Shown here piece after piece: positions 1,176 to 62,615 of a stretch of DNA of 64,000 nt. The notes beneath the pieces are model-generated. The model did no database searches. It saw only the letters and a program-made list of their open reading frames with translations, and was not told the DNA's origin. Each line of letters starts with the position of its first letter. The stretch's first letter is position 1. A program made the translations under genes and the position numbers. Origin of the DNA: Azospirillaceae bacterium (GTDB lineage: Bacteria; Pseudomonadota; Alphaproteobacteria; Azospirillales; Azospirillaceae). Location of the stretch: the NCBI GenBank assembly GCA_028283825.1, contig JAPWJW010000003.1, forward strand, positions 2,356,501 to 2,420,500, in the 5' to 3' direction.

Positions 1176-1190
1176 CCGTCCTCAACCCGG

Positions 1191-1320
1191 CGGCATGAGG
1201 CAAAACCTCATGCCGCTGTAGGACGCGACCGCGTCCGCCGGAGATTTCCGGGGAGCCGCAGGCGGACTGGAAATCGAGGACAGCCAAGGGCCCGGACGGG
1301 CCCGCCCGGCGCCTGAGGGA
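1191..1320 (+). repeat. Multi-stem intergenic repeat, copy 1
   Basis: Begins 16 nt after the transporter stop. Stem 1 CGGCATGAGG/CCTCATGCCG, stem 2 GGACGCG/CGCGTCC, stem 3 GATTTCC/GGAAATC, stem 4 GGGCCC-ggac-GGGCCC, ending with the conserved CGCCCGGCGCCTGAGGG tail. Same architecture as 13 other copies in the window, with different stem bases. Confidence 0.85.
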
Positions 1321-1336
1321 ACACGGAAAGAGCAAA

Positions 1337-11939: not shown

Positions 11940-12605
11940 TTGTTCGATGATTTCGCCGTGTTGATCCGGGGCATACTCCTGGGATTGGCCATCGCGGCGC
12001 CGGTCGGCCCCATCGGCCTGCTGTGCATCCGTCGGACCGTGGAACGGGGCATCATCGCCGGGCTGGCCACCGGCTTCGGTTCGGCCATGGCCGACGGCTT
12101 CTTCGGCGGCGTGGCGGCTTTCGGCGTCAACGCCATCCTGGACGCGCTGCTGGGGCACGTGAAGGAACTGCGCCTGATCGGCGGCATCTTCCTGCTGGGG
12201 GCCGCCATCCATTCCTTCCTGAAGGAACCGCACGAGCGCAAGAACGCGCCGCCCGATGCCGGCAACCTGATCGGCGCCGTCGGCACCGGGCTGTTCCTGA
12301 CGGTCACCAACCCCATCACCATCATGGGCATCATCACCGTGGTGGTGGGTTTCGGCGGCGCCCTGGACCACGCCAAGGCCGGCACCATGACCCTGGGCGT
12401 CTTCCTGGGTTCCCTCAGCTGGTGGTCCATCCTGTGCGGCGGCACCTTCCTTGTCCGCCACCACTTCACGCCCCGCCTGGTCATGTGGATCAACCGGGGC
12501 ACCGGCGTGGTGCTGGGCCTGGTGGGCATCATGGCCCTGCTCAGCTTCTTCTCCCTGGTGCCGGAGAACCTTCAGGATTTCGTGGGGACGCTTATTAGTA
12601 AGTAG
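11940..12605 (+). CDS. LysE/RhtB-type amino-acid exporter
   Basis: 221 residues, about six TM helices. The N-terminal GILLGLAIAAPVGPIGLLCIRR is the LysE hallmark (helix 1 with the conserved PGP-like APVGP), and FLTVTNPITIMGI matches the second conserved TNP segment. It starts at a TTG at 11940 with AGGGA upstream; no in-frame ATG gives the conserved N-terminus. Substrate unknown. Multi-stem repeat copy 2 follows immediately. Confidence 0.85.
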   Translation: MFDDFAVLIRGILLGLAIAAPVGPIGLLCIRRTVERGIIAGLATGFGSAMADGFFGGVAAFGVNAILDALLGHVKELRLIGGIFLLGAAIHSFLKEPHERKNAPPDAGNLIGAVGTGLFLTVTNPITIMGIITVVVGFGGALDHAKAGTMTLGVFLGSLSWWSILCGGTFLVRHHFTPRLVMWINRGTGVVLGLVGIMALLSFFSLVPENLQDFVGTLISK

Positions 12606-12606
12606 T

Positions 12607-12710
12607 TCCCTCAGGCGGCGGGCGGCCACATCCGTGGCCTTGCCTCATCCTCGATTTCCAGTCCGCTTCGCTCCCCGTAAATCTCCGGCGGACGCGGTCG
12701 CGTCCTACGG
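12607..12710 (-). repeat. Multi-stem intergenic repeat, copy 2
   Basis: Reverse orientation, starting 2 nt after the LysE stop. Stem 2 GGACGCG/CGCGTCC, stem 3 GATTTAC/GGAAATC (one mismatch), stem 4 GGCCAC-ggat-GTGGCC. No stem 1 or 5. Faces copy 3. Confidence 0.8.
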
Positions 12711-12766
12711 GCCTGGCGGCCCGAGGGGAGATCTTTACCTTATGAAGAGCGCGGAGCGCAGCGACA

Positions 12767-12863
12767 AGGACGCGACCGCGTCCGCCGCAGCGTTTTGGGT
12801 AGCGTCAGCGGACCGAAACGCGAGGATAGCCAAGGGCCGGATGGCCCGCCGGCGCTTGAGGCG
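12767..12863 (+). repeat. Multi-stem intergenic repeat, copy 3
   Basis: Forward orientation just beyond the 3' end of tamB. Stem 2 GGACGCG/CGCGTCC, stem 3 GCGTTTTGG/CCGAAACGC (imperfect), stem 4 GGGCC-ggat-GGCCC. Tail reads CCGGCGCTTGAGG. Stem 1 and 5 absent. Confidence 0.75.
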
Positions 12864-12878
12864 AACGAACACCCTTCA

Positions 12879-21829: not shown

Positions 21830-21867
21830 CTTATATCAGCGGCATTTGGTCGTAATCTCTCAAATGC

Positions 21868-21978
21868 GCCCTCAGTCGCCGGGCGGCCACATCCGTGGCC
21901 TTGGCTCACGGGCCTGGCCGGCCCGGGCCGGCAGTCGCCGGCCTACCAACAGCATGAGTCGTCATCTCATGCTGTTGG
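21868..21978 (-). repeat. Multi-stem intergenic repeat, copy 4
   Basis: Reverse orientation. Stem 1 CAACAGCATGAG/CTCATGCTGTTG is a perfect 12-bp hairpin unlike stem 1 in other copies; stem 2 GCCGGC-gact-GCCGGC; stem 3 is collapsed; stem 4 GGCCAC-ggat-GTGGCC. Lies between typA and the cupin gene. Confidence 0.75.
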
Positions 21979-25855: not shown

Positions 25856-26581
25856 ATGACAGCGCGTGTTGCATTGGTGACGGGTGGTACCCGCGGCATC
25901 GGCGAGGCGATCTCGGTGGCGTTGAAGGACGCCGGTTACAAGGTCGCCGCCAACTACGCCGGCAATGAGCAGAAGGCGCGCGAATTCACGGAGCGGACGG
26001 GCATCCCGGCCTATCGCTTCGACGTGGCGAATTTCGAGGATGTGCGCCACGGCATGGGCAAGATCGAGGCCGACCTGGGCCCGATCGAGATCATCGTCAA
26101 CAATGCCGGCATCACCCGTGACGGCGTGATCCACCGCATGACGTTCGAGCAGTGGAACGAGGTCATCCAGACCAACCTCGCCTCCTGCTTCAACACCTGC
26201 CGGGTGGCCATCGACGGCATGCGGGCGCGCGGCTTCGGCCGCATCGTCAACATCGGCTCCATCAACGGCCAGGCGGGCCAGTACGGCCAGGTGAACTACG
26301 CCGCTGCCAAGTCCGGCATCCACGGCTTCACCAAGGCCATGGCGCAGGAAGGCGCGGCCAAGGGCGTGACGGTCAACGCCATCGCCCCCGGTTACATCGA
26401 CACCGACATGGTGCGCGCGGTGCCGGCCAACGTGCTGGAAAAGATCGTGGCCAAGATCCCGGTCGGCCGCTTGGGCAAGGCCGAGGAGATCGCCCGCGGC
26501 GTGCTGTTCCTGGTGGCGGACGACGCCGGTTTCGTCACCGGCTCCACCCTGTCCATCAACGGCGGGCAGCATATGTATTGA
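25856..26581 (+). CDS. phaB: Acetoacetyl-CoA reductase (NADPH)
   Basis: 241 residues. SDR with TGGTRGIG (9-16), NNAGITRDG, catalytic Ser (IGSINGQAGQYGQ) and YAAAK; the GQAGQ-GQVNYAAAK run and GFTKAMAQEGA are typical of PhaB. Makes (R)-3-hydroxybutyryl-CoA for PHB. GGGGAGG ribosome site 8 nt upstream. Works with phaA; no phaC lies in the window. Confidence 0.95.
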   Translation: MTARVALVTGGTRGIGEAISVALKDAGYKVAANYAGNEQKAREFTERTGIPAYRFDVANFEDVRHGMGKIEADLGPIEIIVNNAGITRDGVIHRMTFEQWNEVIQTNLASCFNTCRVAIDGMRARGFGRIVNIGSINGQAGQYGQVNYAAAKSGIHGFTKAMAQEGAAKGVTVNAIAPGYIDTDMVRAVPANVLEKIVAKIPVGRLGKAEEIARGVLFLVADDAGFVTGSTLSINGGQHMY

Positions 26582-26585
26582 TGGT

Positions 26586-26683
26586 CTCAGGCGCCGGGCG
26601 CTGGCATCCGCCGGCTCGGCTGTCCTCGCTTTCCAGTCCGCCTGCGGCTCCCCGGAAAGCTGCGGCGCCCGCAGTTGCGGGCT
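26586..26683 (-). repeat. Multi-stem intergenic repeat, copy 5
   Basis: Reverse orientation, 5 nt after the phaB stop. Stem 2 GCCCGC-aact-GCGGGC, stem 3 GCTTTCC/GGAAAGC, stem 4 GCCGGC-ggat-GCCAGC (one mismatch). Confidence 0.8.
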
Positions 26684-26813
26684 AGTCGCTGCGCTCCGGG
26701 CAAGTCAGGGCGGCGCGGTTGGTTGGTTGAGACGTTGGCCTGGCGCATGAGGTTTGCGGTATGACGGGGGCGGGTTCCGGTGACGGGCCCGCCCTTTGTT
26801 TTTGGATGTCCCC

Positions 26814-28317: not shown

Positions 28318-28407
28318 GGAGAGGTGCCGGAGCGGTCGAACGGGGCGGTCTCGAAAACCGTTGAACCAGCGATGGTTCCGTGGGTTCGAATCCCACCCTC
28401 TCCGCCA
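28318..28407 (+). tRNA. tRNA-Ser (anticodon CGA)
   Basis: 90 nt including encoded CCA. Acceptor GGAGAGG pairs with CCTCTCC (28397-28403), discriminator G. The anticodon loop CTCGAAA places CGA at 28352-28354; a long variable arm (type II) and GGTTCGAATCC T-loop follow. Reads UCG serine codons. Confidence 0.97.
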
Positions 28408-33491: not shown

Positions 33492-33506
33492 ACCTCTTAT
33501 CAAGGT

Positions 33507-33634
33507 CCCTCATGCGCCGGGCGCCAGCATCCGCTGGCTGGGCTTCCTCAGTTTTCAGTCCGCTACGCTTCCCAAAAACTTCCGGCGGCCCCGTCGGGGC
33601 CTACGGTGGCGTGCGTTGAAAACCCACGCCACCG
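33507..33634 (-). repeat. Multi-stem intergenic repeat, copy 6
   Basis: Reverse orientation. Stem 1 GGTGGCGTG/CACGCCACC (33605-33613 with 33625-33633), stem 2 GGCCCC-gtc-GGGGCC, stem 3 AGTTTT/AAAACT, stem 4 CCAGC-ggat-GCTGG. All four differ in sequence from most copies yet pair perfectly. Confidence 0.85.
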
Positions 33635-33641
33635 CTGCCTA

Positions 33642-34433: not shown

Positions 34434-34454
34434 GACAAGTCTCCTGAGTTGATG

Positions 34455-34614
34455 CCAGCGGCACGAGGTTCCGCTTCGTGCCGCTGTAGGCTGCGACCGC
34501 AGCCGCCGGAACTTTTCGGGGAGCGTTAGCGGACCGAAAAGTGAGGATCAGCCAAGCCAGCGGATGCTGGCGCCCGGCGTTTGAGGGGGCCTTTGATCGG
34601 TCACGATCGAAGGC
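34455..34614 (+). repeat. Multi-stem intergenic repeat, copy 7 (full length, five stems)
   Basis: Best complete copy. Stem 1 CAGCGGCACGA/TCGTGCCGCTG, CTGTAGG-like linker, stem 2 GCTGCG/CGCAGC, stem 3 ACTTTTCGG/CCGAAAAGT, stem 4 CCAGC-ggat-GCTGG, tail CGCCCGGCGTTTGAGGG, stem 5 GGCCTTTGATCG/CGATCGAAGGCC. Lies between divergent promoters, unlike most copies, which follow stop codons. Confidence 0.9.
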
Positions 34615-34706
34615 CGCGCGTGCGACTAACGGGCCTGAAGGTATGGCTGGGGGGCCAGCACCACCATGGAGTAAGGTGGAACAGTATTTGTGACTGTGAG
34701 GAATAA

Positions 34707-36172: not shown

Positions 36173-36176
36173 TCCC

Positions 36177-36305
36177 ACCAGCGTGAGGTTTCCTCACGCT
36201 GGTGTAGGACGCGACGGCGTCCGCCGGAAGTTTTTGGGGAGCGCAGCGGACTAAAAACTGAGGAAGCCCAAGCCGGCGGATGCCGGCGCCCGGCGCTTGA
36301 GGGGG
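36177..36305 (+). repeat. Multi-stem intergenic repeat, copy 8
   Basis: 4 nt after the DUF3280 stop. Stem 1 ACCAGCGTGAGG/CCTCACGCTGGT perfect 12 bp, stem 2 GGACG/CGTCC, stem 3 AGTTTTT/AAAAACT, stem 4 GCCGGC-ggat-GCCGGC. No stem 5. Confidence 0.88.
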
Positions 36306-39261: not shown

Positions 39262-39424
39262 CCAGCGGCACGAAGTTTTGACTCGTGCGGCTGTAGGTCC
39301 CGACCGGGACCGCCGGAGCTTTCCGGGGAATGTAGTGGACTGGAAAGCGAGGATCAGCCAAGCCCGCGGATGCGGGCGCCCGGCGCGTGAGGGGGCCTTT
39401 GATCGGTCAAGATCAAAGGCCGCG
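39262..39424 (+). repeat. Multi-stem intergenic repeat, copy 9 (five stems)
   Basis: Stem 1 CAGCGGCACGA/TCGTGCGGCTG (one mismatch), stem 2 GTCCC-gacc-GGGAC, stem 3 GCTTTCC/GGAAAGC, stem 4 CCCGC-ggat-GCGGG, stem 5 GGCCTTTGATC/GATCAAAGGCC. Between the AraC gene and lspA, same strand. Confidence 0.88.
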
Positions 39425-40593: not shown

Positions 40594-40596
40594 GGC

Positions 40597-40730
40597 TCCC
40601 TCAGGCGCCGGGCGCGGGCATCCGCCCGCTGGGCTAATCCTCGATTCCCAGTCCGCCTTCGGCTCCCCGGGAATCTCCGGCGGACGCCGTCGCGTCCTAC
40701 AGCGACACGAGTAAGCTCTCGTGCCGCTGG
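40597..40730 (-). repeat. Multi-stem intergenic repeat, copy 10
   Basis: Reverse orientation, 3 nt after the TRIC stop and abutting the 3' end of the lipoprotein gene. Stem 1 CAGCGGCACGAG/CTCGTGTCGCTG (one mismatch), stem 2 GGACGC/GCGTCC-like, stem 3 GATTCCC/GGGAATC, stem 4 GCGGGC-ggat-GCCCGC. Confidence 0.85.
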
Positions 40731-43060: not shown

Positions 43061-43101
43061 ATTTGCCGCGCTTCGCGCAAACGCCGCTTCTCTTTTTTGA
43101 T

Positions 43102-43216
43102 AGGCCCCGACTGGGGCCGCCGGAGCGAGCACCGAAGGGCGGAGCGAGGAAGCCAAGCGGGCGGATGCCCGCGCCCGGCGATTGAGGGGGCCTTTGATCG
43201 ATACCGATCAAAGGCC
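43102..43216 (+). repeat. Multi-stem intergenic repeat, copy 11
   Basis: Between rpmA and obgE. Stem 2 GGCCCC-gact-GGGGCC, stem 3 degenerate, stem 4 GCGGGC-ggat-GCCCGC, tail, stem 5 GGCCTTTGATCG/CGATCAAAGGCC perfect. Stem 1 is absent. Confidence 0.85.
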
Positions 43217-53682: not shown

Positions 53683-53785
53683 TTCCCTCAGGCGGCGGGC
53701 GGCCCCATCCGGGGCCTTTCCTTATCCTCGATTTCCAGTCCGCCTTCGGCTCCCCGTAAATCTCCGGCGGACGCAGTCGCGTCCT
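53683..53785 (-). repeat. Multi-stem intergenic repeat, copy 12
   Basis: Reverse orientation after tyrA. Stem 2 GGACGCG/TGCGTCC, stem 3 GATTTAC/GGAAATC (one mismatch), stem 4 GGCCCC-ggat-GGGGCC. Faces copy 13. Confidence 0.85.
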
Positions 53786-53824
53786 TGGGAAAGTTCGGAC
53801 ATCGGATGGGGCAGGGCGTTATTC

Positions 53825-53967
53825 CAACGGCACGAGAGTGACTCGTGCCGTTGCAGGCTGCGACCGCAGCCGCCGGAGCTTTCTGGGGAGCCGAAGGCGG
53901 ACTGGAAAGCGAGGAAGCCCAAGCCGGCGGATGCCGGCGCCCGGCGCTTGAGGGGGCCTTTGAACTA
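53825..53967 (+). repeat. Multi-stem intergenic repeat, copy 13, interrupted by IS630
   Basis: Stem 1 CAACGGCACGAG/CTCGTGCCGTTG perfect, stem 2 GCTGCG/CGCAGC, stem 3 GCTTTCT/GGAAAGC (one mismatch), stem 4 GCCGGC-ggat-GCCGGC, tail, then the left arm of stem 5 GGCCTTTGAAC and TA. The right arm GTTCAAAGGCC resumes at 55024 after the IS. Confidence 0.92.
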
Positions 53968-54061
53968 GAGCATTTTGAAATAAGGCTGAATCGGTAAGGG
54001 GGATTCCCATTTATTTGGGCCTCTGATTCACTGCGTCTGTCTTGAGATGGAGGCAGTGGCG

Positions 54062-54466
54062 ATGGGTCGTCCGTATTCAATGGATCTTCGTGAACGGGTA
54101 GTGGCCGCAGTTCAGGGGGGCCTGTCGCGGCGTCAGGCGGCGGCTCGGTTCGGTGTGAGCGACAGCGCGGCGATCAGGTGGATGAAGCGCCTGAACGAGA
54201 CGGGTGACGTCGCCCCTGGTCAGATGGGCGGTCACAAGCCCAAGAAGATATCCGGTGACCATCACACCTGGCTTGTTGCGCGCTGCCAGGAGCGGCCCTT
54301 CACCCTGGCCGTCCTGATCGCGGAACTGGGGGAACGCGGCCTGAAGGTCGACTACCGTTCGGTCTGGGAGTTCGTCCGTGGCCAGGGGCTGACTTATAAA
54401 AAAAGACGCTGGTCGCCAGCGAGCAGGACCGCCCCGACGTTGCCCACCGACGAGCGCAATGGGTGA
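54062..54466 (+). CDS. IS630 transposase, N-terminal ORF A
   Basis: About 134 residues. Winged-helix DNA-binding part (MDLRERVVAAVQGGLSRRQAAARFGVSDSAAIRWMKRL). At 54398-54404 the codons read AAA AAA A then G; a -1 slip on this run changes frame to KTLVASEQDRPDVA and enters ORF B. Without the slip it ends at 54466. GGAGG upstream of the ATG at 54062. Confidence 0.85.
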   Translation: MGRPYSMDLRERVVAAVQGGLSRRQAAARFGVSDSAAIRWMKRLNETGDVAPGQMGGHKPKKISGDHHTWLVARCQERPFTLAVLIAELGERGLKVDYRSVWEFVRGQGLTYKKRRWSPASRTAPTLPTDERNG

Positions 54467-55005
54467 AGCACCGGGCGTCGGTCGATCCGTCCCGCCTGGT
54501 GTTCATCGACGAAACCTGGACCAAAACCAACATGGCGCCACTCCGAGGATGGGGGCCGCGCAGTGAGCGCCTTGTCGGCAAGGCGCCCTTTGGCCATTGG
54601 AACACCATGACCTTCCTGGCCGCCCTGCGCCATGACCGCATCGAGGCTCCTTGGCTCTTGAACAAGCCCGTCAACGGCCAGCGCTTCCAGGTCTATGTCG
54701 AGGAGGTTCTCGCTCCGACCTTGAGCAAGGGCGATGTCGTCATCATGGACAACCTTCCCTCCCACAAGGCCAAGCCCGTTCGCAAGGCCATCCGCGACGC
54801 CGGCGCTAAGTTAATCTTCTTACCAAAATACTCCCCGGACATGAACCCCATCGAGAAGTTCTTCTCCAAGCTCAAGCATTCTTTGCGTGAGGCCCAGCCA
54901 CGATCTATCGAGGCCCTCTGCAAGAGCATCGTAAAGACCATGGATACTGTTACGCCAGCGGAATGCTCAAACTACTTCAAAAGTTGCGGGTATGGACCAA
55001 CCTAA
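54463..55005 (+). CDS. IS630 transposase, catalytic ORF B
   Basis: 180 residues if read alone; normally made as the A-B fusion. DDE residues are in FIDETW, IMDNLPSHK and MNPIEKFFSKLK. The first codon of this frame is a GTG overlapping the ORF A stop, so the frameshift, not the GTG, is the likely route. Confidence 0.87.
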   Translation: MKHRASVDPSRLVFIDETWTKTNMAPLRGWGPRSERLVGKAPFGHWNTMTFLAALRHDRIEAPWLLNKPVNGQRFQVYVEEVLAPTLSKGDVVIMDNLPSHKAKPVRKAIRDAGAKLIFLPKYSPDMNPIEKFFSKLKHSLREAQPRSIEALCKSIVKTMDTVTPAECSNYFKSCGYGPT

Positions 55006-62480: not shown

Positions 62481-62513
62481 CCTGCCACCGTTGCCTTGGG
62501 GGCCGCGTGCGAA

Positions 62514-62615
62514 CATAGGACGCGACGGCGTCCGCCGGAGTTTTCCGGGGAGCGTCAGTGGACTGGAAAACGAGGAAGCCCCAAGCGGCCGGATGGCCGC
62601 GCCCGGCGACTGAGG
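62514..62615 (+). repeat. Multi-stem intergenic repeat, copy 14
   Basis: Between tadA and a membrane protein. Stem 2 GGACG/CGTCC, stem 3 GTTTTCC/GGAAAAC, stem 4 GCGGCC-ggat-GGCCGC, tail GCGCCCGGCGACTGAGGG. Stems 1 and 5 absent. Confidence 0.88.

Follow-up and report, generated by a model that had tools for sequence, protein, structure and literature searches.

A row of covarying hairpins between Nitrospirillum genes: an intergenic repeat family of probable IS630-type MITE origin

We analysed a stretch of 64,000 nucleotides (hereafter the window; C3:2356501-2420500) from a 7.16-Mb Azospirillaceae genome of five contigs, in which the same row of hairpins recurs between genes. The question raised by this locus is what kind of element these repeats are, and why the letters of their stems vary while the folded shape stays.

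Architecture, copy number and range

A preliminary description of the window had claimed 14 copies. A covariance model returns exactly 14 matches, the same 14 seen in earlier pattern inspection, and the observation as a whole is confirmed, in copy number as in the strength of the covariation. The left part of the repeat reads stem 1, TAGG, stem 2 (loop GACC, GACT or GACG), GCCGGA and stem 3; the right part reads GAGGA..AGCCAAG, stem 4 (loop GGAT or GGAC), GCCCGGCG..TGAGGG and sometimes stem 5. Stem 3 is built of an outer helix, a GGA/GGA internal loop and a GC-GNA-GC tip. The fixed order of stems and linkers first proposed holds in general, but stem 1 is missing from several copies and stem 5 from 10 of the 14. 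The GGGGAGC/GCGGACT core ascribed to stem 3 is indeed enriched (eight occurrences of GGGGAGC-N(2-10)-GCGGACY in the window versus 0.08 expected), although the copies at 21866 (minus strand) and 43070 carry another stem 3. The GGAT loop of stem 4 is common but, contrary to the first account, not invariant, being GGAC in the copy at 1190.

The focal copy (copy 7, plus strand, 118.1 bits) is of the full-length type, with five hairpins. It extends from about 34450 to 34621, so that the original boundaries of 34455-34614 were slightly short. When the locus was compared with the genus genomes by blastn, positions 34444/34458-34621 (query 1445/1459-1622) aligned to many other copies. The folding z-score of this copy is -5.9 as DNA and -6.6 as RNA. 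Its five hairpins, all on the plus strand, are placed by folding, and stems 2, 3 and 4 by covariation counts as well: stem 1 at 34456..34486 (arms 34456-34468/34474-34486); stem 2, with loop GACC, at 34489..34504; stem 3, with the GGA/GGA internal loop and a GC-GTTA-GC tip, at 34511..34542; stem 4, with loop GGAT and followed by the GCCCGGCG..TGAGGG tail, at 34556..34571; and stem 5, a GATC..GATC palindrome near the right end, at 34587..34614.

The remaining copies lie on both strands. Those on the plus strand are copy 1 (1187..1321, stems 1-4, 112.2 bits), copy 3 (12755..12865, 92.7 bits), copy 8 (36173..36302, 112.2 bits), copy 9 (39262..39421, with stem 5, 110.6 bits), copy 11 (43070..43216, with the different stem 3 and with stem 5, 72.6 bits), copy 13 (53824..53953, 111.8 bits) and copy 14 (62500..62615, 106.9 bits). 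On the minus strand are copy 2 (12602..12725, 108.1 bits), copy 4 (21866..21973, with the different stem 3, 39.4 bits), copy 5 (26580..26710, 99.6 bits), copy 6 (33505..33637, 102.5 bits), copy 10 (40596..40730, 112.4 bits) and copy 12 (53683..53800, 105.3 bits). Copies 2 and 3 stand head-to-head, as do copies 12 and 13. Downstream of copy 13, at 53954-55005, lies an IS630 of another type (DDE_3) than the one described below, which may interrupt the stem 5 region of that copy. In the copies at 12755 and 26580 (minus strand), stem 1 is replaced by a short motif, GGAGCGCAGCGAC, which is likewise a hairpin (GC-GCA-GC); similar motifs occur before or inside copies of other genera.

Across the whole genome, the exact core GGGGAGC-N(2-10)-GCGGACT occurs 213 times, versus once for the reversed pattern, and a stem-4/tail pattern with up to two mismatches gives 348 matches versus none for the control. 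Within 864 kb of this genome we found 142 covariance-model matches and 60 exact cores. Scaling the 213 exact cores by 142/60 gives an estimated total of ∼500 copies, a rough figure since the 864 kb may be atypical. The family is present in all seven genomes of the genus, in several other genera of the same family, and in 40 of 99 genomes overall. Its distribution is patchy: a general model matched 27 of 289 genomes of the class Alphaproteobacteria (own genome included), and in a 120-genome sample of the phylum, which includes this class, only our genome and two others of the same class matched. Among the matches listed for the exact tail pattern are records of Nitrospirillum, Niveispirillum, Azospirillum, Roseomonas, Falsiroseomonas, Magnetospirillum, Telmatospirillum, Novispirillum, Erythrobacter, Sphingorhabdus and others, and the pattern also occurs in 27 stretches of contigs classed as viral. 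By blastn, plasmid and phage collections gave no match to the repeat.

The early remark that no named family has this build agrees with our searches. No Rfam family matches at or above its gathering threshold (the best weak match of the focal copy reaches 16.4 bits against a threshold of 90), and keyword searches of open-licence papers returned no published account of the repeat. The sole Rfam match of the window is a tRNA gene at 28318-28404.

Unit ends, target sites and placement at gene ends

In relatives, full units measure 144-169 bp and are bounded by TACC…GGTA inverted ends. We searched for such ends with TNA required outside both of them and identity of the flanks not required. Identical 3-bp TNA flanks were found in 20 of 25 units, where independent draw would give 6.2 (p about 1e-7 against 0.28), these units being partly related, with six from one MAG. 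The strict pattern detected the core in 23 of the 25, and 19 of those 23 have identical flanks. A tail-anchored search likewise gave identical flanks in 15 of 27 units versus 5.5 expected. In one MAG, two units that are 99.3% identical lie in different surroundings with TGA repeats at both, which points to recent movement there; the same MAG has 10 full-length matches, and the flanks agree in six. Within Nitrospirillum, only 11 of 142 copies show the left-end pattern, no sign of recent dispersal is seen, and no empty-site junction could be read between our genome and N. viridazoti, the sequences being too diverged. Most Nitrospirillum copies would be old cores that have lost one or both ends and still fold.

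A candidate for the enzyme comes from the same ends. When identical flanks were required, 3.37 Mb yielded 19 units with such ends, of which 18 are 110-169 bp long and one is a 1168-bp IS630 element, whose IS630-type transposase is split across two frames; this first IS630 copy was thus found by a search that demands identical flanks. Our genome holds three full matches to its DDE part, and of 58 genomes searched, our own included, 32 show at least some match. Further copies were counted as fitting if one end lies 11-19 bp beyond the end of the DDE frame, which left out L347, L353 and L372. In the six fitting copies, 12 of 12 flanks are TNA. The two flanks are identical in four (L345, L348, L356 and L360, the right end of the last having two choices that scored alike, of which the 1168-bp one was taken as fitting the frame) and unlike in L349 and L357.

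The resemblance between IS630 ends and repeat ends differs among genomes. In G033, 15 of 18 bases are shared between one IS end and the left end of the repeat (the best of 1031 control 18-mers shares 13), and the other IS end shares 12. In our genome the IS630 ends resemble local repeat ends only loosely, and in G022 they do not match them. IS630 elements are usually said to duplicate TA, not TNA. We infer that an IS630 transposase moved the units, and we regard an origin of the family as non-autonomous IS630-type MITEs as quite probable.

The target may have a bearing on where copies lie. TNA comprises TAA, TGA, TTA and TCA, so that every such site reads as the stop TAA or TGA in one direction or the other. 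Of the 25 units, 10 have a flank that terminates an open frame of 100 codons or more, compared to 11.3% of random TNA (p 2e-4), a count in which some frames are under-measured as the loci are cut at their ends. Using a simple gene caller on the 864 kb, we found 141 of 142 copies between called genes or at their edge. Among spacers of 100 bp or more, copies occupy 51 of 76 convergent ones, compared to 69 of 246 tandem and 3 of 119 divergent ones. Because a spacer must be long to accommodate a copy, we also give the values for all lengths: 51/128 convergent, 69/495 tandem and 3/127 divergent. Where the tail faces a stop codon (104 copies), it lies within 20 nt of that codon in 71.

That TNA includes stop codons fits this crowding of copies at convergent gene ends. 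In the mechanism we propose, a full unit of ∼145-170 bp with TACC…GGTA inverted repeats would insert by duplicating a 3-bp TNA target. A unit landing in a TAA or TGA stop codon would restore the stop, and units would therefore accumulate almost harmlessly at the 3' ends of genes and in convergent spacers. The explanation as a whole, in which these repeats are alphaproteobacterial IS630-type MITEs with a hairpin interior that land in stop codons, is in our judgement probable.

The same placement would also be expected of a host-domesticated 3'-end element, whose transcribed hairpins protect or end messages, each copy being under selection. The occupancy of convergent spacers speaks for such a role, as does the fact that cores without outer stems remain folded. 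Dispersed copies have diverged from one another, in further agreement with it; the single pair with at least 95% identity is an IS110 chimera. We matched 78 spacers that hold a copy to N. viridazoti and found a copy in both species in 26, with shared orientation in 18 of 21 one-to-one copies. The other 52 spacers, however, have no model match there, although a loose pattern detects remnant-like pieces in 11 of the 52. (One spacer first taken as empty in N. viridazoti, at own 685428, holds a clear remnant.) Nor do copies in tandem spacers show an orientation bias (38 same versus 43 opposite, our genome and N. viridazoti together), and the same architecture appears in contigs classed as viral. 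Occupied spacers show no association with intrinsic terminators (Fisher p 0.33 and 0.11), which led us to reject a terminator role. These data make domestication unlikely, albeit the best placed of the alternatives.

Covariation of the stems and the form in which they fold

The preliminary description held that the stem arms change in pairs, and this is borne out by strong covariation above shuffled controls, both in our genome and in N. viridazoti. Scores throughout are count-based, without phylogeny correction. In a hand-picked alignment of 41 of 44 candidates (A2; L009+1500, L015+1706 and L018-1693 omitted), 98.6% of positions are paired and 166 cells are changed on both sides, giving a score of 0.505 versus 0.159±0.010 for shuffles and 0.03-0.09 for slid controls. 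This alignment is slightly biased towards pairing because the omitted L018 reverse has a broken stem 2. A3, unlike A2, takes every match in the 864 kb (142); here too 98.6% are paired, with 610 cells changed on both sides and a score of 0.521 versus 0.144±0.005 shuffled. The 64 N. viridazoti matches (A5), none of which was used for the model, are 96.5% paired and score 0.433 versus 0.122±0.008. A3 and A5 are alignments fitted to the structure, and their slid controls stay at or below 0.07. In a further set of 41 sequences, drawn from other genera and from viral contigs, two helices were counted, with a score of 0.653 versus 0.141±0.020. The AGCCAAG and GCCCGGC boxes are invariant in alignment A6 but uninformative, because both are part of the search pattern.

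Two further structures were considered and set aside. A helix, CGCCGG/CCGGCG, closes a multibranch in predicted folds; it shows no double changes and is mismatched at one pair in 8 of 41 copies, and for want of covariation it was left out of the structure. Solitary stem 1 or stem 5 palindromes were dropped as a class, the patterns being symmetric, so that off-core matches may largely be the same sites on the other strand. The N. viridazoti spacer that matches own 748686 (C3:2188686) holds a stem-5-like GATC palindrome without a core.

Since the stem letters vary while the folded shape stays, folding seems to matter. The claim of selection for folding stands in part: the fold is kept, and the cause would be selection or a bias. 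Copies without stems 1 and 5 are 97.5% paired, compared to 98.6% for complete ones, both values being upper bounds because the parse demands pairing. A MITE origin alone does not account for this persistence.

The loops carry a pattern of their own. Of the 146 stem-3 tips that were parsed, 108 are triloops, 100 of these reading GNA, and 34 are tetraloops, of which 31 read GNNA, with only four being GNRA. In an open scan of 214 stem-4 loops, at least 194 conformed to GNAB. DNA hairpins of the GCGAAGC type have exceptional stability. Both GNNA and GNAB are described as stable loop types in DNA (PMC8373063). The retention of such DNA-stable loops, judged by loop letters, favours folded DNA over RNA without proving it. 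A strand preference by wobble, suggested by a first count of 94 GT and 23 AC, was discarded, this count having come from a parse that favours GT; an even count for stems 2 and 4 gave 46 versus 29 (18/13 and 28/16; p 0.47 and 0.10), which is not significant; only for the conserved G-T pair of stem 3 was it retained. On this basis we suggest, tentatively, that the fold serves the element itself at the level of the nucleic acid, in protection, tolerance or propagation, and rather as DNA than as RNA. A more specific version, which we consider doubtful, is that of a selfish element carried to stops by IS630-type transposition, with hairpins selected or kept by the replication machinery as DNA and with a loop code read by some factor.

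Covariation of this kind could also be mutational. Template switching in imperfect palindromes would copy one arm from the other, so that stems drift yet stay perfect. Comparison of copies at matched places in the two species is in keeping with such a process: both arms have changed at 61 pair positions and a single arm at 17, one-arm changes being under-counted as stems with fewer than five paired positions were left unparsed. At copy 11 (43070), for example, the counterpart at the matching place in N. viridazoti differs in both arms of stems 2 and 4. Stems at matched places differ from each other roughly as much as stems of random copies do, and stem alleles are nearly independent among the hairpins of a copy (pairs a2-a3 and a3-a4 not above permutation; a slight a2-a4 link, reached in 2 of 500). 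Template switching, however, leaves the fixed loops and linkers unexplained, as well as the near-constant pairs, namely the C-G closing pairs and the conserved G-T wobble of stem 3. Moreover, saturated neutral sites together with ordinary selection can give the same picture. We therefore regard a purely mutational origin of the covariation as improbable.

Unlike dispersed copies, tandem neighbours are ∼100% identical, and whole cores form tandem repeats with a period of about 102-111 bp. The spacer at own 701135 (C3:2141135) contains two copies, compared to five in N. viridazoti (C1 200867-201494, L335), a tandem expansion. Core arrays with a 108-bp period and up to five units in tandem are present in L296 and L297 (IMGVR_UViG_2708742415_000004, classed as viral).

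Relation to known repeats and significance

The initial reading was that of a mobile hairpin array like REP/BIME, possibly with a RAYT-type transposase near the copies. What survives is a dispersed, mobile-derived repeat with BIME-like head-to-head pairs (12602-/12755+ and 53683-/53824+); the RAYT part does not. A REP/BIME family would be driven by a RAYT (Y1 HUH) enzyme recognising GTAG and a hairpin as single-stranded DNA. Of 131 parsed copies of our genome, 58 do have GTAG at the base of stem 2, but only 2 of 68 copies of other genera do. The placement at gene 3' ends is shared with REPs, and two genomes of the family, G010 and G033, combine many copies with a strong Y1 match. On the other hand, PF01797 was detected in none of the seven Nitrospirillum genomes, with E. 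coli and Caulobacter as positive controls, and on this ground we reject a RAYT origin for the genus. In the family, 16 of 59 genomes have PF01797, with only one weak match in the 11 genomes of genus g12, most of which are copy-rich. To our knowledge, terminal inverted repeats and TNA duplications are not REP features. Taken together, these data make this origin very unlikely.

IS110 insertion is a further trait in common with REPs, which are known IS110 targets according to part of one source (PMC1525189). Both IS110-family elements found in the 864 kb (L074:16180-17432 and L094:5933-7184, own C3) sit at the same point of two different copies, the AGCCAAG box before stem 4; the element that was scanned has PF01548 and PF02371. 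The repeat offers the IS110 element a recurrent target, as REPs do for IS621. We also looked for a gene recurrently enclosed by copies and rejected the idea: 14 genes are flanked on both sides, and the recognised transposase among them is an IS110 sitting inside a copy.

The CcrM-associated intergenic repeats (CIR) of Caulobacter and Brucella are likewise alphaproteobacterial, intergenic and ∼110 bp long, with hairpin arms joined by a linker (as described in part of PMC2229807), but their defining GANTC, conserved in a hairpin loop, is not conserved here (the 142 copies and their flanks contain 34 such sites, or 1.40 per kb versus a background of 0.87, and most of them fall within the stretches of stems 1 and 5), so that identity with CIR, which we compared by description only, is rejected and membership in a branch of them is extremely unlikely.

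With the IS630-type MITE origin as the preferred reading, the nearest described kind is RUP of Streptococcus pneumoniae, a MITE related to IS630-Spn1. As far as the consulted parts of the sources describe it, RUP is small, intergenic, over-represented between convergent genes and similar to an IS630 element, with terminal inverted repeats that have TA at their ends (PMC2229807, PMC3049150). RUP is described with targets containing TA (PMC2229807), whereas the present repeat shows TNA flank repeats and no 2-bp TA duplication. RUP copies are described as highly conserved (PMC2229807, PMC3049150), whereas here the stems vary and the loops stay. RUP is also a repeat of one species, and the present repeat recurs in many families of a class.

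Other families share single traits. Like REP/BIME, the repeat forms hundreds of extragenic palindromes in paired orientations; it differs in having three core and two outer hairpins, terminal inverted repeats and target-site duplications, in lacking Y1/RAYT in 7/7 genus genomes, and in that GTAG is not conserved. BOX elements (boxA-B-C) are modular too, with inner modules described as varying in tandem number (PMC3049150, in part), whereas in the present repeat it is whole cores that go tandem, and the stems covary. ERIC/IRU and Correia/NEMIS are small MITE-like palindromes with TA termini, again from part of one source (PMC2229807). Those consist of one stem formed by the paired ends, while the present repeat is a row of independent hairpins.

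In the 864 kb, two out of every three convergent spacers of 100 bp or more hold this repeat, and it recurs in many alphaproteobacterial families. It ties together MITE ends and target choice, a regeneration of stop codons that would lie behind placement at gene 3' ends, and an unusually clean covariation of stems. Its hundreds of copies per genome make it a natural data set for asking whether folding is selected as DNA or as RNA, or whether palindromes are kept by mutation alone.
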